Origin: a virus
Direction: 5' to 3' (one strand)
Virus record (IMG/VR): IMGVR_UViG_3300021335_000020
Location: 1 to 55,022 of that record
Length of the DNA stretch: 55,022 bases
Position numbers and translations under genes: made by a program. Position 1 is the stretch's first letter, and each line of letters starts with the position of its first letter. The notes under the pieces were generated by a model. It searched no databases. It saw nothing but the letters and a program-made list of their open reading frames with translations, and was not told the origin of the DNA. Of this stretch, positions 77 through 27,032 are shown one piece after another.

Positions 77-1054
77 ATGGCAGTGAGAACTCCAGTATAT
101 TATGATGGTACTGACATTCGTGAAGTATCTTCATCCGATATAACTAAAATAAAAAATAGATGTGTATATTTATGGGGTGGTTCTCGCTCTGTAAACTTAT
201 CTGTAGTCGGATCCTCTGGCAATTTGCGCAGAATGGTTGATCATAGAGACACGGCAAGTGGCGTCACTAATCATGTATCTTCATTTCAAAATCCAGGCGG
301 CACAACTGACAGAGGCGCATCCACAACATATGATAGAATTAATCAGTCAACTGCAGATGGAGGAGCAGGCGATCCTGGAGACGCAAATAATAGAAAATAT
401 CCATTATTTCTAAATAGTGGCAATTTGCAAGCCATGTCAAAACAGGATATGCTTGATACATTTATTAGTCCCGCTATTGATATCTTAGTTGATGGAAATG
501 ATAGAGATGGAACTTATAGAATCCATACGGGTACATCATTAGGTAGCCATACGCTAATTAGCAGCACACCAGTTTTTATCGATCAAAGATTTAACACCGC
601 CTTTCATGGCTTAGGAGCAGGTGGGTCAAAGACTGCTGAATTATTACCAGCTTCTACTGATCAACCTACGACAATTACAAATTATTATTTACACAGAACC
701 AATCAAGGAGTTTATGACGGTACTCCTACATTTAATATACCGCTTTTTCTTAGAACAGATGATGATATTCAAACATACACGCAGTCTGCAATCGATTCTA
801 TATTATCTGACTTAATTGATTGGGCCACTTCCAGTCAAACTGGTTATAGAATTAGATATGAGGTACAGGGTTCAGGAGTTGACGGTGCATCATACGCTGG
901 TAATCAAAGAGGAAGTGCTATGACAGATACTACGTTAAATAGCTCTGCCGTTGTAAATGATCAGGACGGCGGTGACACGTATCGTTCACAAAGATTTCCT
1001 GCTGGTGGTTCAGAGACCGAAACAACCTACACTTTAAAAATTCGGAAAGAATAA
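77..1054 (+). CDS. Putative virion structural protein, 325 aa
   Basis: This is a complete frame from ATG at 77 to TAA at 1052-1054. It has no cysteine-rich, transmembrane or enzymatic motif that I recognise. The composition (rich in Gly, Ser, Thr, Asp and Asn, with alternating hydrophobic residues, e.g. TGTSLGSHTLISSTPVFI) is that of a beta-rich virion protein. The N-terminus, MAVRTPVYYDGTDIREV, looks like a globular assembly domain rather than a fibre repeat. It starts 3 bases after the previous stop and ends one base before the next ATG, so the three genes form one unit. A baseplate or tail accessory role is inference from context and composition. I do not recognise the T4 counterpart. Confidence 0.6.
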   Translation: MAVRTPVYYDGTDIREVSSSDITKIKNRCVYLWGGSRSVNLSVVGSSGNLRRMVDHRDTASGVTNHVSSFQNPGGTTDRGASTTYDRINQSTADGGAGDPGDANNRKYPLFLNSGNLQAMSKQDMLDTFISPAIDILVDGNDRDGTYRIHTGTSLGSHTLISSTPVFIDQRFNTAFHGLGAGGSKTAELLPASTDQPTTITNYYLHRTNQGVYDGTPTFNIPLFLRTDDDIQTYTQSAIDSILSDLIDWATSSQTGYRIRYEVQGSGVDGASYAGNQRGSAMTDTTLNSSAVVNDQDGGDTYRSQRFPAGGSETETTYTLKIRKE

Positions 1055-1055
1055 A

Positions 1056-1544
1056 ATGATTAATCATACATTTGTAAATGCTAGATTTATTGATACTAAA
1101 CATATAGTGTGCGAAGTACTATGGAGGGATAATGATGACGATACAATCATTAGATCAGAAAATGTATTGCGCGAAGATGGAAATACTTTATGGGAAAATC
1201 TTTTAAAAGAAACTACTTTAGAGCAAATCCTTCGTAATACCTTTGATTATAATAAAGGTGAAGAAGAAGCCTTTAAAAAAATGGTCAAAGAAATGTATCC
1301 TCCTGAGGTAATCATTGAAACTAATGAAAGACAAATTGAAGTAGAAAATAAATCTTTAGATTTCGAAAAGCTTTTATCAGGAGATCTTGAAGCAGAAGAA
1401 TTATTTAAACTTAAAATTCTTATGTTTGAAAATGAAAAAATTAAAACATTAAAAGATAAGAGCCTAAAATCAAAAATTAGAAAATCAAAGGATGCATTAG
1501 AAATTATTAATCTGTATTATAATGCCATTCAAACTTCTTCGTAA
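1056..1544 (+). CDS. Unrecognised protein, 162 aa, in a structural operon
   Basis: ATG at 1056 follows the previous stop by one base. The protein has a beta-like first 35 residues (FVNARFIDTKHIVCEVLW) and then a charged, helical, Lys/Glu-rich remainder ending in KSKDALEIINLYYNAIQ. It has no signal peptide, membrane segment or catalytic motif. The last 38 bases overlap the 3' end of the minus-strand glycosyltransferase-like gene, so the two genes converge tail to tail with no terminator hairpin between them. The function is unknown. A baseplate-associated or chaperone role would fit the neighbours, but nothing in the sequence proves it. Confidence 0.6.
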   Translation: MINHTFVNARFIDTKHIVCEVLWRDNDDDTIIRSENVLREDGNTLWENLLKETTLEQILRNTFDYNKGEEEAFKKMVKEMYPPEVIIETNERQIEVENKSLDFEKLLSGDLEAEELFKLKILMFENEKIKTLKDKSLKSKIRKSKDALEIINLYYNAIQTSS

Positions 1545-2391
1545 TGAAGTGAGTCATTTTTCTTTCTAAGACCAAATACTGTTCTCTTGTTTCAGTTCTA
1601 TGATCAAGAATTTGATGCCATGGCCCATTAATATTTACAGCTGGTACTTCATTCTTGGCAAGTAGATATGAGTAAATAGGTTCATTATTATAATCCATTG
1701 TTTCTTTAATATTATTTGTGTACATACTGTCCGGATCATTTTTAAAGAAAGTAATATTGTTTAGAATTTCTTCTAAGTCTTGAAAATAATTTAATTGTTG
1801 AATATGTTTTCGAGTTGCTCCAATAATTCCAGTATTGGTAATAGGAACTCTTGGGCTTATAAAATCATGACTACATAAAGCATGTGCAATAAAATATTTG
1901 TTGATCATTGAACGCAAGTATAATTTTTGATTGCTCCATCGTGCAATATACTTAAGAGCCTCTTCATGATAATCTTCTAGATGAACATGAATGCCTTTAT
2001 CTAAGTCATGAGCTTCGAAAAAGTTTTCTTCTGTTTCGAAAAGAACATCAAAGTCTACATACAAAACTTCATCATATTCCTCGGCTAACTTTTCCATTTT
2101 CCACAGTTTATAAAAATTAACGACGTGATATTCATTTTGCTCTTTACAATATGAATACATCAAGTCTCTAAACTGTTCGTAGTCTTTCCCATTAGTGTAA
2201 TGAAAGTAATCACAGCCATGTAAGTCAGCGTAATCTTTTTTATTTTCTATTAATCGTTCGCTATACTCATTCATTACTCGTTTTGTTTTAGTTGATCTAT
2301 CTTCAGGTTCCCAGGCCCAGTAAGGTCCAAGTTGTTTATCTAGTCTCTCCTCTTCTAAATCGATATGAATTGAAAAAATAACTCTTTTCAT
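1507..2391 (-). CDS. GT-A-like glycosyltransferase, last gene of the minus-strand cassette
   Basis: The product has 294 residues. It carries a DFD triad (residues 113-115) at the end of a hydrophobic strand (EVLYVDFDVLF), the DXD signature by which GT-A glycosyltransferases hold a metal and nucleotide sugar. An NTG motif (186-188, ITNTGIIGA) and late histidines (H259, H264 in WHQILDH) sit where metal-binding residues occur in this fold. There is no membrane segment, so a soluble cytoplasmic enzyme is likely. The ATG overlaps the stop of the upstream methyltransferase gene by four bases (ATGA), which implies translational coupling. The donor and acceptor cannot be predicted. Family-level confidence is moderate and rests on the DXD context rather than on overall similarity. 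Confidence 0.65.
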   Translation of the reverse strand: MKRVIFSIHIDLEEERLDKQLGPYWAWEPEDRSTKTKRVMNEYSERLIENKKDYADLHGCDYFHYTNGKDYEQFRDLMYSYCKEQNEYHVVNFYKLWKMEKLAEEYDEVLYVDFDVLFETEENFFEAHDLDKGIHVHLEDYHEEALKYIARWSNQKLYLRSMINKYFIAHALCSHDFISPRVPITNTGIIGATRKHIQQLNYFQDLEEILNNITFFKNDPDSMYTNNIKETMDYNNEPIYSYLLAKNEVPAVNINGPWHQILDHRTETREQYLVLERKMTHFITKKFEWHYNTD

Positions 2392-3002
2392 TTACCAATC
2401 ACCATGAATCTTTGAAAGTTATGATTGTTAATCGCTCCACTATACGCAACCCAATCTAAATTTAAATAATGAATCATATGTTCAGTATGATAAGAACAAT
2501 TAATATGTGTAGGATGATCAAAGTAATTATTGCTTTGTAGACATACCCAAGCATCTGGATTTTTATTTCGTACTAAATCAATCCAATATTGTTTTTCAAT
2601 ATGTTCTACAGAAGTTGATACGATTACATTATAAGATGAAATGTCTAGATCTTCTGCTTTTGTGGTTATAAATTGTGCGTCAATATCTGGAAATAATTTC
2701 CAAGCAATATTTTGACATTCTGGATCCATATCAATAGAGGTAATATTCATACCAGCATCTGGAAATTTTTTTCGTAAATAATATGCCATTAGCCCATACC
2801 AACCGCCAATTATCAGAATATTTCCAGCATCATGTCCATATAATTTACTTAATTCATATGCTAACCATTTTTTAGATTCAGTTTGATTTTTACTTAATGA
2901 ATGTATGATATCTTTAATACGAAACATATCTGCACCTTCGTACATTGCATTATCATATATTTCTTCAATTAAATAAAGAGCATTATGTAAAGTTTGTTCC
3001 AT
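2388..3002 (-). CDS. Class I SAM-dependent methyltransferase, 204 aa
   Basis: A Rossmann-type methyltransferase is indicated by motif I (ILIIGGWYG, residues 62-70), an acidic residue at the end of the next strand (TSIDMD, D91), and a motif-IV-like strand followed by EHIE (133-136). The length is usual for small phage methyltransferases. A helical N-terminus of about 50 residues may bind substrate. The start codon lies 20 bases inside the upstream glycosyltransferase-like gene, and the stop overlaps the downstream ATG by four bases. It does not have the N-terminal architecture or the DPPY/PC motifs of DNA methyltransferases, so a sugar, small-molecule or protein substrate is more likely. The substrate is unknown. 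Confidence 0.7.
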   Translation of the reverse strand: MEQTLHNALYLIEEIYDNAMYEGADMFRIKDIIHSLSKNQTESKKWLAYELSKLYGHDAGNILIIGGWYGLMAYYLRKKFPDAGMNITSIDMDPECQNIAWKLFPDIDAQFITTKAEDLDISSYNVIVSTSVEHIEKQYWIDLVRNKNPDAWVCLQSNNYFDHPTHINCSYHTEHMIHYLNLDWVAYSGAINNHNFQRFMVIGK

Positions 3003-3555
3003 CTAGTTCCTCATATGTCGTAACTGGTTGATCGTTATATTCTCCATATTTTTTAGAATGAATTAGATCATGATCAAAGGTATTATAATCAAATCCTTCA
3101 TGAATCATAAATCTGTCTATACCTTTATATTTTCTCATAAAGTAATCCGGATTAGTAGCAAAATGTTCCCATATATGCTTTTGTTCTTGACCTGTCCAAG
3201 TCATAACTTGACTATTGATTCGAACATCATAATTATGATTGATGGGTGTATCTTTCTTCCATGGGCAATCTACAAGAGTTAATCCATCCCACTTAAGATA
3301 AGGTAAAGGATTGTTATTAATTCGAGTATCGAGATCGAAATATAAATTTTGACCAGGCAAATCTAATTGAAATAACCATAATTTATTCCACCATACTTTC
3401 AAATTAGGACCACATGGAATTATATTACATAATACGTTCGGTTTATCTGTAATACAATAAAAATTAGCATCAATATAAAGTTTTAATTTTTCAATTAAAT
3501 ATGTGACGTGATTAGCATTGTACTTATCGCCATGTTTTACAAATAATACGTTCAT
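2983..3555 (-). CDS. Short glycosyltransferase-like protein, 190 aa
   Basis: The N-terminus MNVLFVKHGDKY starts with a beta strand. A later strand ends in an acidic triad (LYFDLDTRI, DLD at 74-76), the DXD arrangement of GT-A enzymes. The protein is shorter than typical glycosyltransferases (about 250-300 residues) and may be a minimal or partial fold. It has no membrane segment. The region after the triad (TLVDCPWKKD) resembles the acceptor side of GT-A folds only loosely. The ATG overlaps the kinase-like gene stop by four bases, and its own stop lies 20 bases inside the methyltransferase gene. Together with the 294-residue neighbour it gives the cassette two probable sugar-transfer steps. 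Confidence 0.55.
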   Translation of the reverse strand: MNVLFVKHGDKYNANHVTYLIEKLKLYIDANFYCITDKPNVLCNIIPCGPNLKVWWNKLWLFQLDLPGQNLYFDLDTRINNNPLPYLKWDGLTLVDCPWKKDTPINHNYDVRINSQVMTWTGQEQKHIWEHFATNPDYFMRKYKGIDRFMIHEGFDYNTFDHDLIHSKKYGEYNDQPVTTYEELDGTNFT

Positions 3556-4052
3556 ACGTAGTTCTCATCAAGTTTAGAAGATATTAATCTATTCATTAGC
3601 CATCCTTCAACTCCTAATGTAGTAATCATATGCATCGGCCAATCAAATCTAAGAGAATCTACGTCAATAACATAATAATCGTGGGTAGATGTCATTAAAA
3701 TATTTTCAGTAGATAAATCATGATGTAACATTGCAAAGCCTTTTTTTGCTGAAAAGTTTGCCATGAAGTATTTTATTTCCTGTAAAACTCTTAAACAATC
3801 TAAAAAGCTTTGCTCATTGAAAGATGCAGTATAAAATTGTCTCATAGATCTACCAGGAACTTTTTCCATTACTATTGATTCGTGTGCAGTAAAATCATAT
3901 ATTTTTGGTAATATGTGGTATTCATTATTAAATTCTGTATAGTTTTGTAGCCAATTGCTATTTAAAAACCTTAACCAAATTTTTGAGTGTTTAATAATTT
4001 TATTTCCATCTTCGTAAATTTCGGCATACTCTGTTTCTCTAATTAAGTTCAT
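3552..4052 (-). CDS. Small protein-kinase-fold phosphotransferase-like protein
   Basis: The ATG at 4052 gives 166 residues. An in-frame TTG at 4058 is less likely. The catalytic loop is clear: LHHDLSTENIL contains the HxD...N pattern (D112, N117), and a YVIDVDSL strand 11 residues later supplies the metal-binding acid in place of DFG. A hinge-like segment, ESIVMEKVPGRSM, precedes it. The glycine-rich loop is missing and only IIKHS can supply the nucleotide-binding lysine, so the N-lobe is reduced. Small kinases of this shape include LPS/choline/aminoglycoside kinase relatives, which phosphorylate sugars or small molecules. The gene overlaps the upstream radical SAM gene by 14 bases. Activity and substrate are inference. 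Confidence 0.65.
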   Translation of the reverse strand: MNLIRETEYAEIYEDGNKIIKHSKIWLRFLNSNWLQNYTEFNNEYHILPKIYDFTAHESIVMEKVPGRSMRQFYTASFNEQSFLDCLRVLQEIKYFMANFSAKKGFAMLHHDLSTENILMTSTHDYYVIDVDSLRFDWPMHMITTLGVEGWLMNRLISSKLDENYV

Positions 4053-5172
4053 TTTCAAGTGCTCTTATACATTTATTGATTGATTTAAAATTTTGCTTAT
4101 GATACGAATATAAACTATCGTTTACAATTTTAGATTTTATTTGTAATAGCTTTTCACATATTCCTAATATTTCTAATTGAGAAAGTGTATGTAATCCCCA
4201 ATCTTTTGTATGTTCTCTGCCGTTTCTATCATAAGTATTGATAAAAAATTCTACATTTTTTCTATGAGCATATTCGAATAATTGGTAAATGTTACTAGCA
4301 TTAATTGACATAAATGTTGAATTAAGAGTTACATTCTTATTTCCTAGCTTATCAATAAACTTTTCTACATTAGAATATGTTTCTTCCCAAACACCGCCAA
4401 CACGAATTTTTTCATATTCTTCTGGAACAATTGTATCTACCGAAATAGACAATCTTAAGTTATTATTCTTACAAACTTTTTCTACTTTCTTATTAAGAAT
4501 TGATCCGTTTGTGCAAACCATTATACTTAATTCAGGATTAATTTTTGCAATCTTATCACACAATTTATAAAAAAACTTATGAGCAAACGGTTCACCTCCA
4601 GTAAACCTTATTTCATTTAAATGTGGAATAAACTCTTCAAACTCAAGTAAAAGTTGATTTGCGTTTTCTTCTTCGTCAAATATATTAGGAGCATATTTCT
4701 TTAGAAATTTATCTCTTCCTAGCATATGTTTTGAAGACAATTCTCCCAGACACATAGGGCATGCAAAATTGCAAAGATTAGAAATTTCAAATTCAAATAT
4801 AAGAGGATAACTATTTTCTTCTAGTGCATGTCTTAGCCTCTCATTACCAGTATTTCTATCGTAATCAAGTATAGGAGGTTGCATTTTATTTTTAATTCTA
4901 GTCTTACATAATCTTGTACACCCAAAATGAAAATCAGAATTTAAAAATGCTTCTTGATACTCGTTATTTAGTTTACCAAACCAATAATCTTTTAGACTAA
5001 ACTCACCTTTTTTCCATTGTTGTTGTCTAGTCGAAAAACAACAAGGAGACATGTACCCATCTCTTCGTATTCTCATATGATTAAATGCAGCATAGCATGT
5101 AATAAACTTATGAGATTCAGGTATTGTTCTATTAGATTGAAACCAATCCCAATTATCCATTTTTATACTCAT
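4039..5172 (-). CDS. Radical SAM enzyme with N-terminal cysteine-rich (twitch/SPASM-like) domain
   Basis: The product has 377 residues. The radical SAM core begins at residue 127 and has the CxxxCxxC cluster motif (C134, C138, C141 in CNFACPMC), the GGEP motif (192-195) and a following CTNGS strand. An N-terminal domain carries C26, C44, C45, C85 and C89, the spacing expected of an auxiliary iron-sulfur cluster. In most SPASM/twitch enzymes this domain is C-terminal, so here it is placed before the core, as in families annotated as N-terminal-twitch radical SAM proteins. Such enzymes usually modify peptides, proteins or sugars. The ATG at 5172 overlaps the partner radical SAM gene by 20 bases; a second ATG four codons on is possible. 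Confidence 0.85.
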   Translation of the reverse strand: MSIKMDNWDWFQSNRTIPESHKFITCYAAFNHMRIRRDGYMSPCCFSTRQQQWKKGEFSLKDYWFGKLNNEYQEAFLNSDFHFGCTRLCKTRIKNKMQPPILDYDRNTGNERLRHALEENSYPLIFEFEISNLCNFACPMCLGELSSKHMLGRDKFLKKYAPNIFDEEENANQLLLEFEEFIPHLNEIRFTGGEPFAHKFFYKLCDKIAKINPELSIMVCTNGSILNKKVEKVCKNNNLRLSISVDTIVPEEYEKIRVGGVWEETYSNVEKFIDKLGNKNVTLNSTFMSINASNIYQLFEYAHRKNVEFFINTYDRNGREHTKDWGLHTLSQLEILGICEKLLQIKSKIVNDSLYSYHKQNFKSINKCIRALENELN

Positions 5173-6358
5173 TTAAATATGGTGCCATTTCAAAAATATC
5201 TTCGTCATTAAATCTACTAATCAAACAAAAGTCAATCCATTGCATCATTCTATTTCTAATCTCTTCATTGCCTTCCCATTTATCAATAGTTGGTTTGACG
5301 CTTAAAAGATTATTGACTCCACTTACATGTAAATCGTTACTTCTGTAATATGTATCGTTTATTTTATCATACTTTTCTAAATAAGTAAACACTTTTTTTA
5401 GACCTTCTTCAATATGATGCTCGTGCAAATAAAGAGGTGAACAATATTTTGGAAAGGTTACTAAATTTGCCATGCTAATACGATCAACTCCAGGAATTTT
5501 TTTCCAGTAATCTATCAACTCAGCAATATTCATCCAATTGTATATCGATATAGTAGATACAACAACAACTTTCCGTCCTTCTTTTGCATGATATCTGTTT
5601 ATGTTATTAACAGTCTTTTCGAAGTTGCCTCCTCTAATCCAATTATATAAATCTCCAACACCATCAATACTTGCTTGCACATGAACTTCTTTTATTTTAT
5701 GTAAAAGTTCAATTACATAATCTGTTACTAATTGAAAGTTAGTGCATATCTCTATTCTACATTGAGGATTCGTATTTGCAATCTTCTCTAAAATTTTAAT
5801 ATTATTTGGATCTGCAAATGGCTCACCACCTTTAATTGTTAAGTGCTGAAGATATGGCACAATATCTAAAACCTTATCAACATCTTTATCTGTCATTTTG
5901 TAGATATCTGTATGGAATTTATGATTTTCATTTCTCCATTCTAGTCCAACATCAACCGCCATTTTTTCATATGGTGCCCACTTTGAAGAGTATTTTCCGG
6001 AGCAAGTTACACACATTTGGTTACAAATGTTACTAGTTGTTATTTCTAGAAATCTAATAGGAATAATATCTGAATTAATATCTTCTTCGTAATTAGGAAA
6101 GTTAAATCTGTTATATGAATCAAATCTTGCAATTCGTCCAGCTTTAAAATGATCAACACAAACCTGACATTGTTTAGGCATGTCTTGTTTATTAAATCTT
6201 TCACGCATTACATTGTAAATGTCAGAATTAAAAAAAGTTGTAAGGTTGTTGATATTACTTATATGTTCTAGAGCAACATTGTCTCCAGCACAGCACAATA
6301 CGATTTCGCCAATTGGATTAATTGTTAATCCTGTTTCTGGTACTAAACATTTCATCAT
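5153..6358 (-). CDS. Radical SAM enzyme with N-terminal twitch-like domain, first gene of the cassette
   Basis: The 401-residue protein has the radical SAM motif CNQMCVTC (C112, C116, C119), GGEP at 177-180 and a CTNFQ strand further on. The N-terminal domain has C4, C22, C23, C64 and C67, matching the cysteine layout of its downstream neighbour, so the two are paralogues with the auxiliary-cluster domain before the core. It starts with two consecutive methionines at 6358 and 6355. It is the promoter-proximal gene of the minus-strand cassette. No TATAAATA late box points leftward between 6359 and 6428; the nearest sigma70-like match is weak. The substrate is unknown, and no small precursor-peptide gene is visible inside the cassette. 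Confidence 0.85.
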   Translation of the reverse strand: MMKCLVPETGLTINPIGEIVLCCAGDNVALEHISNINNLTTFFNSDIYNVMRERFNKQDMPKQCQVCVDHFKAGRIARFDSYNRFNFPNYEEDINSDIIPIRFLEITTSNICNQMCVTCSGKYSSKWAPYEKMAVDVGLEWRNENHKFHTDIYKMTDKDVDKVLDIVPYLQHLTIKGGEPFADPNNIKILEKIANTNPQCRIEICTNFQLVTDYVIELLHKIKEVHVQASIDGVGDLYNWIRGGNFEKTVNNINRYHAKEGRKVVVVSTISIYNWMNIAELIDYWKKIPGVDRISMANLVTFPKYCSPLYLHEHHIEEGLKKVFTYLEKYDKINDTYYRSNDLHVSGVNNLLSVKPTIDKWEGNEEIRNRMMQWIDFCLISRFNDEDIFEMAPYLNEYKNG

Positions 6359-6367
6359 ACTACTATG

Positions 6368-6375
6368 TATAAATA
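6368..6375 (+). promoter_or_regulatory. T4-type late promoter box (distal of a tandem pair)
   Basis: The sequence is a perfect TATAAATA, the octamer recognised by gp55-type late sigma factors in T4. It lies 61 bases before the ATG at 6429 in the divergent gap between the radical SAM cassette and the fibre block, and is followed 16 bases later by a second copy. Confidence 0.6.
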
Positions 6376-6391
6376 GCTACAACAGACTTTT

Positions 6392-6399
6392 TATAAATA
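6392..6399 (+). promoter_or_regulatory. T4-type late promoter box (proximal of a tandem pair)
   Basis: This is a second perfect TATAAATA. A start about 6 bases downstream would give a leader of roughly 24 bases for the gene at 6429. It points rightward into the fibre block only. Confidence 0.65.
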
Positions 6400-6428
6400 C
6401 AGTAAAGTTTTACTAACAGGTTTATTTC

Positions 6429-6779
6429 ATGGCTAGATACGAAGAACTCACAATAGACAAGGGCTCAGACGTCGCCTTCGAACTTCATCTCAACAATGAT
6501 GATGGAAGCGTTAAAGACTTGTCCGGCTATAGTGGCTCAGCAAAAATGAAGAAGAGCTTTAATAGTGATAGCGACAATACTTATGCTTTTACTGCTGTCA
6601 TCGCCGACCCTGCCACACAAGGTATACTCACTTTAACTATGACTAATACTCTTACCGACACAATTAAAGCTGGTCGTTATGTATTCGATACCGAAATTTC
6701 TTTTAATGATAGTGATGGAAATGCTATTGTAGAAAGAATTCTCGAAGGACGAATTCACGTTACTCCATCTGTAACTTAA
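6429..6779 (+). CDS. Small Ig-like virion protein, 116 aa
   Basis: The protein is an all-beta domain (residues 5-112) starting MARYEELTIDKGSDVAFEL and ending in GRIHVTPSVT. Its layout resembles the N-terminal baseplate-attachment domains of siphophage BppU-type proteins and a family of small structural proteins common in marine T4-like phages. It has no enzymatic residues. It is the first gene after the tandem late promoters and lies 11 bases before a very large fibre gene. I infer a connector or cap that links fibre to baseplate. That role is not proven by the sequence. Confidence 0.6.
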   Translation: MARYEELTIDKGSDVAFELHLNNDDGSVKDLSGYSGSAKMKKSFNSDSDNTYAFTAVIADPATQGILTLTMTNTLTDTIKAGRYVFDTEISFNDSDGNAIVERILEGRIHVTPSVT

Positions 6780-26900: not shown

Positions 26901-27032
26901 TCATCTAGAATTGGACTATTTAATGACGATAGTCATGATTTCAATGGCTACATTTCTAATCTTAGGATAATTGAAGGTACAGCACTCTATAGTAATTCGT
27001 TTACACCACCAACTAGTGAGTTAAAAGGATAA
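23976..27032 (+). CDS. Lectin-like adhesin with four LamG/concanavalin-type domains, 1018 aa
   Basis: The N-terminal 60 residues contain LYIWNGSGWYNIALINTNPS, a short attachment unit, followed by a cadherin/Ig-like domain (DPEGLDITYTTTTDAGFDG). Four LamG-like domains follow at about residues 205-390, 435-610, 645-805 and 845-1015. Each has an opening YFDGTGDY-type strand, a W[TY]H[IVA]A[LVW] strand and a closing D[LA]R[IF]xxxxxxY segment. LamG folds of this sort bind glycans, so a host surface polysaccharide is a plausible ligand. It lies two bases after the giant fibre and one base before gene 13, placing a lectin at the boundary between fibres and neck genes. Confidence 0.75.
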   Translation: MATYSSVKQAVADAAGVGGSVTTYSTPANLPTSGNEAGDQAFVSSNNRLYIWNGSGWYNIALINTNPSFSSSPDGSYELNTDGTSTTITLVATDPEGLDITYTTTTDAGFDGMATVSNDSSVFTITPLSADSATTSSGNLTFKASDGVNLASAISEFTLMFFIENSNFTSLLTKASGNAGTNSTFTDGSTNGHTVTVSGDAISQAFTPYHPGGYSTHFDGTGDSLQLTTSGDLQAIGRSGTAATIEAWVYLNSAPSSSGTAVYSQGTASSTGGSNIISFEIQQNRTMRGMVNGSYSNTTGCPISTGTVPLKEWTHIALVLNSGTWTLYLNGVADGTATGSYPSGTAHSTAYIGRIFYDAGRTGDMYVRDLRITSTAVYTSAFTSPTAPLTAITNTKLLACHLPYMGDGSTSNYTITANGNTSTERFGPYDYLSYSASTYGSSVYLDGTGDYLQIADHSGFTIDTGDFTAECWIYPTAQKYQPVIFGQWSDPYSWGILLSNDTNGYGRLIFYDTGYRDTTSTTPAPLNQWSHLALVKDGSNATLYLNGKSIATRGSLGSLRNSTAPLTIGANSSGSHPFQGYVADARFVVGSTLYTTNFTPPAAPLSAVTNTQLLVQASPSVYNASGGESKLDLIGNTQSSTAQTKNASSSMYFDGSGDYINLSVDDGFAFGTGDFTIECWAYFTSISDGNLQIIFHTGGTTSSLHFHVDANQLSTGTSNSYKVNESTTFTTNTWYHVAVTRSNGVSYVFRDGVLLGTGTADTTNYTSTGTPRIGANSSGSQLVNGYIEDLRITKGLARYPFIPAKETLTAVSGTDLLVAHASTLTDGSSGGRTLTASGNAAVSSFAPKADMYSLYFDGTNDYVSVPTNSLNGTGNFTLEYWIYMNNTSAFAIIGDMNTSGDGGWQVWWNSSVGQFRMGNDNLSDYEGYAFTNETGKWYHHAWVRDGSTLSFFVDGSKITRTTNVGNMGTTDLADQSSRIGLFNDDSHDFNGYISNLRIIEGTALYSNSFTPPTSELKG

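Follow-up and report, generated by a model that had tools for sequence, protein, structure and literature searches.

A conserved glycosyltransferase and methyltransferase triad linked to a fibre-like gene in a T4-like marine phage, and its possible role in fibre glycosylation

What might six overlapping leftward genes do beside a fibre-like gene, in a phage genome that otherwise runs rightward? The question arises in the window, the whole stretch of DNA analysed here (55,022 nucleotides; IMG/VR record IMGVR_UViG_3300021335_000020), which is a fragment of a T4-like marine phage. Its relatives are Pelagibacter and Methylophilales phages, and its MCP matches those of Pelagibacter, Methylophilales and C48C1 phages at 60-67%; it may belong to the pelagimyophage/Kyanoviridae-like group. 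The features of the locus are collected in Table 1. We propose, at close to even chances, that the cassette serves as the glycan-making part of a fibre module: a triad of enzymes would assemble a small glycan on the up2 fibre and methylate it, and swappable tailoring enzymes would diversify it.

Table 1. Genes of the cassette and its flanks, with positions in the window
Feature	Position	Strand	Description
up2	77..1054	+	325 aa, fibre-like, with 22% Ser/Thr; no named family
up1	1056..1544	+	162 aa, no trusted family match, nearly always adjoining up2
GTa	1507..2391	-	GT-A-fold glycosyltransferase-like, GT8-like; invariant D113xD115, NTG, NE, H..K
MT	2388..3002	-	Class I SAM methyltransferase; GGWYG motif I, SIDMDP, TSxEH
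GTb	2983..3555	-	DxD (FDLD) glycosyltransferase-like; matches phrog_1962 glycosyltransferase
KIN	3552..4058	-	Small CotS/Bud32/APH-like kinase; HHDLSTEN, IDVD; ATG at 4052
RS2	4039..5172	-	N-twitch radical SAM; CNFACPMC; twitch C26, C44/45, C85, C89
RS1	5153..6358	-	N-twitch radical SAM; CNQMCVTC; twitch C4, C22/23, C64, C67
Divergent gap	6359..6428		70 bases; two T4-type late promoter motifs TATAAATA, 6368-6375 and 6392-6399 region, facing right only
dn1	6429..6779	+	L-shaped-tail-fibre-assembly-like / LtfC-like; right border of exchangeable block

The cassette (1507-6358) consists of six intact minus-strand reading frames: two N-twitch radical SAM proteins, a small kinase-like protein, a class I methyltransferase and two DxD GT-A-type glycosyltransferase-like proteins. 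The overlaps are 4, 20, 4, 20 and 20 bases when the kinase start is taken as TTG, and the fourth of these (KIN/RS2) becomes 14 bases if its ATG is used. All credible genes outside the cassette lie on the plus strand, the remaining long minus-strand frames being shadows of longer plus-strand ones. The layout thus agrees with an earlier sequence-only reading, which had described six packed minus-strand genes with all others rightward; its 14-base overlap corresponds to the ATG start. The same reading had seen no small precursor gene inside, and a search for such a frame within the cassette likewise gave no candidate and found no intergenic room.

GTa has no family match in Pfam. Its predicted fold is confidently GT-A (pLDDT 92), with Foldseek E-values of about 1e-6 to GT-A enzymes; the best match among solved structures, PBCV-1 A064R, is modest (TM 0.45/0.62). 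It is important to note that a GT-A fold does not reveal the acceptor. The Pfam match of MT is weak and below the cut-off; the Rossmann motif I and acidic loop are intact, with residues conserved in 13 sequences. Relatives of GTb were found in 21 of 385 Alphaproteobacteria, at loci too short to give context. One match, in XacN1, was set aside and is not among the published glycosyltransferases of XacN1.

RS1 and RS2 both carry the radical SAM CxxxCxxC motif and N-terminal twitch cysteines, and in these features both are like the family NF033640 (N_Twi_rSAM). RS1 scores 198.7 bits, over the curated cut-off of 170, while RS2 scores 134.1 bits, below it, and so resembles the family without being filed as a member. 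To our knowledge, the function of this family is uncharacterised. The N-terminal twitch of RS2 matches that of BtrN, an enzyme that acts on a sugar-like substrate. In bacteria, the N-twitch radical SAM genes sit among glycan genes, of the surface-polysaccharide type, when compared with genes 5 kb away. No cellular relative of RS1 was found in a genome scan, nor in a second scan, of 385 Alphaproteobacteria at E 1e-30, the latter made without a positive control. The Pfam match of KIN is weak, with its motifs intact. No relative of KIN was found by tblastn in phages, by an exact-pattern scan of IMG/VR or by jackhmmer over the fetched reading frames; a single distant one was later found in genome L369.

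The linkage of these genes was counted in IMG/VR searches seeded from different genes, within one virus clade, taking the best 80 hits per scan and counting dereplicated loci with room for neighbours. Among these best hits, MT seeding gave 34 loci, with GTb in 33 and GTa, up1 and up2 in 32 each, and GTb seeding gave 26, with MT in all, up1 in 25 and up2 in 24. The linkage also holds from the other side: the 36 loci seeded from up2 all contained up1 and GTb, 34 had GTb with MT, and 29 had GTa. It persists although the triad occurs on either strand relative to up1 and up2. Radical SAM genes were present at 25 of the 34 MT-seeded and 15 of the 36 up2-seeded loci from the same best hits. The conserved unit is therefore up2, up1 and the GTb-MT-GTa triad, extending beyond the cassette to 77-1544, while the radical SAM genes can be absent or exchanged and the kinase is nearly unique. 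An impression that RS1 formed the core of the cassette came from RS1-seeded searching and was overturned by seeding from MT, GTb and up2. The sequence-only reading had taken the six genes as one set, a view to be refuted if they never co-occurred elsewhere; they do recur together, in keeping with its single sugar-building or tailoring set. However, all six do not form a single conserved unit.

The comparison with genome L369 is presented here in terms of protein identity. The outer genes are very similar (up2 98%, GTa 91%, dn1 96%, next fibre 83%), whereas identity is lower in the inner block (MT 55%, GTb 61%, KIN 31%, RS1 34%) and no ortholog of RS2 was found in L369. Nucleotide identity is lost from the GTa/MT junction onward and returns at the RS1/dn1 gap. 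The stretch in between, MT-GTb-KIN-RS, is an exchanged one in L369.

The protein up2 would be a virion fibre, judging from its position and composition (Ser/Thr 22-24% in up2 proteins), and up1, whose 3' end runs 38 bases into the convergent GTa gene, is perhaps a chaperone. Since the triad core is constantly accompanied by up2 in related viruses, the fibre, or the sugar that it binds, is probably what is decorated. In the proposed mechanism GTa and GTb would build a short glycan, with up2, rich in Ser/Thr, or another fibre nearby as the most likely acceptor, and MT would cap this glycan by methylation. RS1 and RS2 may oxidise, epimerise or deoxygenate a sugar via 5'-deoxyadenosyl-radical chemistry, and KIN may phosphorylate one. 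Swapping of RS1, RS2 and KIN could then give related phages differing decorations on a nearly identical fibre. That the triad is a dedicated fibre glycosylation set, and that recombination of the radical SAM and kinase block at fixed boundaries lets phages give one and the same fibre a new glycotype, is a bolder suggestion and rather unlikely to hold in full. We know of no earlier example of a virion glycan tailored by radical SAM enzymes. Two observations run against a fibre target. RS1 is also found at sites without fibres, where it adjoins nucleotide-sugar genes in the midst of core genes such as uvsW and gp55; and linkage of a receptor-binding protein with receptor-altering enzymes could look alike.

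The latter observation leads to the main alternative, in which, during infection, the enzymes alter a glycan of the host envelope, either the O-chain of lipopolysaccharide or the capsule, and block superinfection via the same receptor, the linkage with up2 being co-inheritance of the receptor-binding protein and the receptor-altering enzymes. We consider this a serious contender, though on the doubtful side. The profile of GTa gives a weak match (E only 0.3) to the lipooligosaccharide transferase LgtC, and the surface-polysaccharide-type neighbours of the bacterial N-twitch genes point the same way. It is also favoured by the authors who described the host-recognition clusters of pelagimyophages, in which GT8-type transferases abound (PMC7029224). 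In addition, the late promoter motif TATAAATA lies on the plus strand in 12 of 12 cases, none facing the cassette. This timing argument was dropped because many relatives have the triad or RS1 placed after up1 and co-directional with it, in some cases overlapping by no more than 4 bases, so that separate early expression is not general; the capsid transferases of PBCV-1 are also early. Against a host target, furthermore, the cassette has no flippase, polymerase or membrane anchor, and its pairing with one fibre-like family is near-obligate. The sequence-only reading had named two options for the target, the fibres next to the cassette and the envelope of the host, and this pair of options stands.

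Two other explanations may be considered against the fibre glycan. The radical SAM enzymes might act directly on peptides or proteins, either side chains of the fibres or a precursor of RiPP-like type, independently of the transferases. The top fold matches of RS1 are the RiPP maturases SkfB and SuiB, and its uncharacterised family leaves room for such a role; however, the TM values are only 0.34-0.39, a range shared with MoaA and viperin, and these matches do not separate peptide from sugar substrates. The cassette has neither a candidate precursor frame nor an RRE domain by Pfam, up1 and up2 are nearly free of cysteine, and the radical SAM genes keep the company of sugar genes, all of which makes this explanation improbable. 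A recently captured foreign island, a moron-like cargo with a role unconnected to fibres, would fit the inverted orientation, the exchangeable inner block and the low GC of the cassette (29.7% against 37.7% for the rest of the window, 4th of 251 among the lowest 5-kb stretches). The sequence-only reading had suspected a separate origin from G/C counts of 18 of 60 in a cassette line and 24 of 60 in the fibre block. The counts are exact, but the conclusion does not follow. GC3 of the cassette genes (0.16-0.25) is close to the range of other genes (0.17-0.35), so the low GC reflects amino-acid usage, that of enzymes as against Gly/Ala/Ser/Thr-rich fibres, and is not a sign of foreign origin. The distances of RS1, GTb, MT, up1 and up2 also correlate (r 0.69-0.94, permutation p 0.0005), and the triad and up1/up2 are in fixed company. 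This explanation is already weakened and appears very improbable.

If the glycan does sit on the fibre, the receptor-binding proteins of some widespread ocean phages may be decorated, and decorated anew, by the phages themselves. Both the host range of phages of SAR11-like bacteria and the competition among them would then have to be read differently. The linkage yields a testable rule, namely that up2 occurs with GTb. The work also points to an uncharacterised N-twitch radical SAM family, whose arrays among glycan genes in bacteria and phages provide a substrate lead.

It is important to compare this locus with known systems. Its setting is probably the host-recognition cluster of pelagimyophages (Zaragoza-Solas et al. 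2020, PMC7029224), a variable island of T4-like marine phages that lies downstream of VrlC and holds tail fibres, glycosyltransferases and radical SAM cassettes. The available part of that paper reports counts and the O-chain hypothesis its authors favour; the up2-up1-GTb-MT-GTa unit and optional radical SAM genes were not seen in that part. The island lies between VrlC and the neck genes; here a head-tail adaptor is found at 27032, right of the cassette, and VrlC would fall left of the window edge. In Pelagibacter phage Mosig EXVC030M (59-78 kb), VrlC is annotated near the up2 relative, and relatives of up2 and up1 stand beside those of GTa, MT and GTb, as here. The Mosig region also codes for radical SAM proteins, carbamoyltransferase and aminotransferase. 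The radical SAM proteins there are short, and the cysteines of one fit a C-terminal twitch; the region has no close RS1 ortholog and no kinase. PBCV-1 A064R, with domains GT, GT and MT working on the viral capsid glycan (PMC9614988), likewise joins a virus-encoded GT-A transferase with a second transferase and a glycan-capping methyltransferase. It differs in that an algal virus encodes it as a single protein with three domains and no radical SAM enzyme, and its likeness to GTa is at the level of fold only. No family of the GtrA flippase or GtrB bactoprenol transferase was found among the six cassette genes; the likeness to Gtr-type phage seroconversion cassettes lies in phage-encoded modification of a surface glycan, which is a possible outcome here as well.

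The cassette and its neighbours (Table) constitute a real, conserved glycan module linked to the fibre, whose swappable cargo consists of the radical SAM genes and the kinase. The 55,022-base record belongs to a T4-like myovirus. Matches to T4-type PHROGs cover its terminase, sheath, portal and major head protein; the latter shares 60-67% identity with the head proteins of Phage C48C1, Methylophilales phage Melnitz and Pelagibacter phages Mosig and HTVC008M. As the sequence-only reading had it, the six genes lie on the minus strand at 1507-6358 and all other credible genes run rightward. The overlaps also agree, although the 14-base value needs an ATG start for KIN at 4052; with the TTG at 4058 this overlap is 20 bases.

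Cassette genes and flanking features in the window
Feature	Position	Strand	Description
up2	77-1054	+	fibre-like protein
up1	1056-1544	+	partner gene
GTa	1507-2391	-	glycosyltransferase-like
MT	2388-3002	-	class I methyltransferase
GTb	2983-3555	-	glycosyltransferase-like
KIN	3552-4058	-	kinase-like
RS2	4039-5172	-	N-twitch radical SAM
RS1	5153-6358	-	N-twitch radical SAM
divergent gap	6359-6428
dn1	6429-6779	+	right-flank gene

Against the 170-bit cut-off of NCBIfam N_Twi_rSAM, RS1 scores above (198.7 bits) and RS2 below (134 bits). Both carry the radical SAM CxxxCxxC, preceded on the N-terminal side by twitch-like cysteines (C4, C22, C64 and C67 in RS1; C26, C44, C85 and C89 in RS2), which are kept in relatives. 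In the RS2 profile, it is the N-terminal part that aligns with the C-terminal twitch of BtrN. Mosig encodes a short radical SAM protein (L001:6012-6836) whose late cysteines C195, C214, C250 and C253 fit a C-terminal twitch, in contrast to the N-twitch of the window proteins. KIN weakly resembles CotS/Bud32/APH kinases, with HxDxxxxN and IDxD intact. GTb belongs to phrog_1962 and has an invariant DxD within FDLD. MT carries class I motifs. GTa has no family match and an invariant DxD; its predicted model (pLDDT 92) resembles GT-A glycosyltransferases, with PBCV-1 A064R first, followed by xyloglucan xylosyltransferase, LgtC and others.

Starting from RS1, 45 IMG/VR loci were collected, giving 22 orthologs after dereplication, 14 of them with module or up1/up2 neighbours. 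GTb and MT occur in all 11 loci of this setting that are flanked by 5 kb or more on either side. Most remaining orthologs have core T4-like genes for replication or the head around them; several are placed between uvsW and gp55 (names from our own reading of the sequences), adjoining an Fe-S carrier, an NAD-dependent sugar epimerase and a UDP-sugar dehydrogenase. RS1 orthologs at a second site are seen in L032-L041 (for example, L038:5777-8866), in several of these between uvsW and gp55, and the carrier there is A-type; the uvsW-gp55 interval of the window is without a radical SAM gene. Because an RS1 start is biased, MT, GTb and up2 served as further seeds; the best 80 matches were taken per scan, and the counts therefore cover one virus clade. 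Among 34 usable MT-seeded loci, GTb was present in 33, GTa, up1 and up2 each in 32, any radical SAM gene in 25, dn1 in 17 and a kinase in one. The 26 GTb-seeded loci contain MT (26), up1 (25), up2 (24), GTa (24) and any radical SAM gene (19). With up2 as seed, 36 loci gave up1 and GTb in all, GTb with MT in 34, GTa in 29, any radical SAM gene in 15 and a kinase in one. The conserved unit is therefore up2-up1-GTb-MT-GTa. The six genes as a whole are not supported as such a unit: GTb-MT-GTa recur together, the radical SAM genes and kinase are optional, and up2 and up1, outside the cassette, belong to it.

The inner block is replaceable, while the fibre and GTa are retained. A close relative, IMGVR_UViG_3300046387_000975, has the gene order of the window, kinase included, with identities of 98% for up2, 96% for dn1, 91% for GTa, 83% for the next fibre and 79% for up1, but 61% for GTb, 55% for MT, 34% for RS1 and 31% for KIN; it has no RS2 ortholog. 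At the DNA level, identity of about 83-92% drops near the GTa/MT junction to about 70%, reaches almost zero across KIN-RS2-RS1 and is back at 90% at the divergent gap.

The cassette is low in GC (29.7% versus 37.7%), and the low G/C count of a sample line inside it had been taken to hint at a separate origin. However, third-position GC is much as elsewhere, and the shift reflects the amino acids of enzymes versus those of fibres. Across 15 genomes, RS1, GTb, MT, up1 and up2 have pairwise identities that correlate (r 0.69-0.94); the cassette is a resident part of the locus, co-diverging with it.

In bacteria, glycosyltransferases, GDSL hydrolases, sulfotransferases and asparagine-synthase-like proteins are frequent among the closest two genes either side of N-twitch relatives, but not among genes 5 kb or more away. 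By our own approximate reading of the tallies for the top 25 families listed, transferases make up about 16/130 near versus at most 3/99 distant genes, and GDSL 11/130 versus at most 1/99 (p about 0.014 for each). Among the viral neighbours are carbamoyltransferases, epimerases, UDP-sugar dehydrogenases and B12-binding proteins. On this gene content, the radical SAM step is best guessed to be sugar tailoring. Radical SAM arrays were also found in L201, L202, L198, L185 and others, with up to eight consecutive genes and up to eleven in 17 kb, many carrying N-twitch cysteines. The contigs of L202, L154, L182 and L178 encode T4-type head protein and terminase and are thus true phages. Vibrio phage K566 has a cluster of three radical SAM genes of this kind (L002, 9962-14364) and is a possible laboratory system.

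The fibre is the leading candidate for the glycan acceptor, with about an even chance of being correct; it is favoured because the linkage with up2/up1 runs in both directions. The Ser/Thr content of up2 (22-24%) is similar to that of other fibres in the window (20-28%). Modification of the host O-chain is the view published for this region (PMC7029224), and the host envelope is a possible, less probable target. The window has 12 copies of the T4-type late promoter TATAAATA (6368-46901), all on the plus strand and most of them no more than 120 bases ahead of a gene start; two copies lie in the divergent gap, towards dn1, and none of the 12 faces the cassette. This suggests that the cassette would use another promoter, perhaps with other timing. 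In many genomes GTb-MT-GTa shares the strand of up1/up2; in others, the window among them, it lies on the opposite one. Timing is not decisive on the target because in many relatives the cassette genes lie downstream of up1 on the same strand, and because the capsid transferases of PBCV-1 are expressed early (PMC9614988).

The setting of the fibre-linked module is probably the host recognition cluster of pelagimyophages, which has been described before and includes glycosyltransferases and radical SAM cassettes (PMC7029224). The cassette is neither a RiPP system, for which it lacks a precursor and, by Pfam, an RRE, nor a Gtr cassette. The nearest system like which the cassette may work is PBCV-1 A064R, a GT-GT-MT protein acting on the capsid glycan (PMC9614988); the comparison is one of analogy, with no claim of homology.
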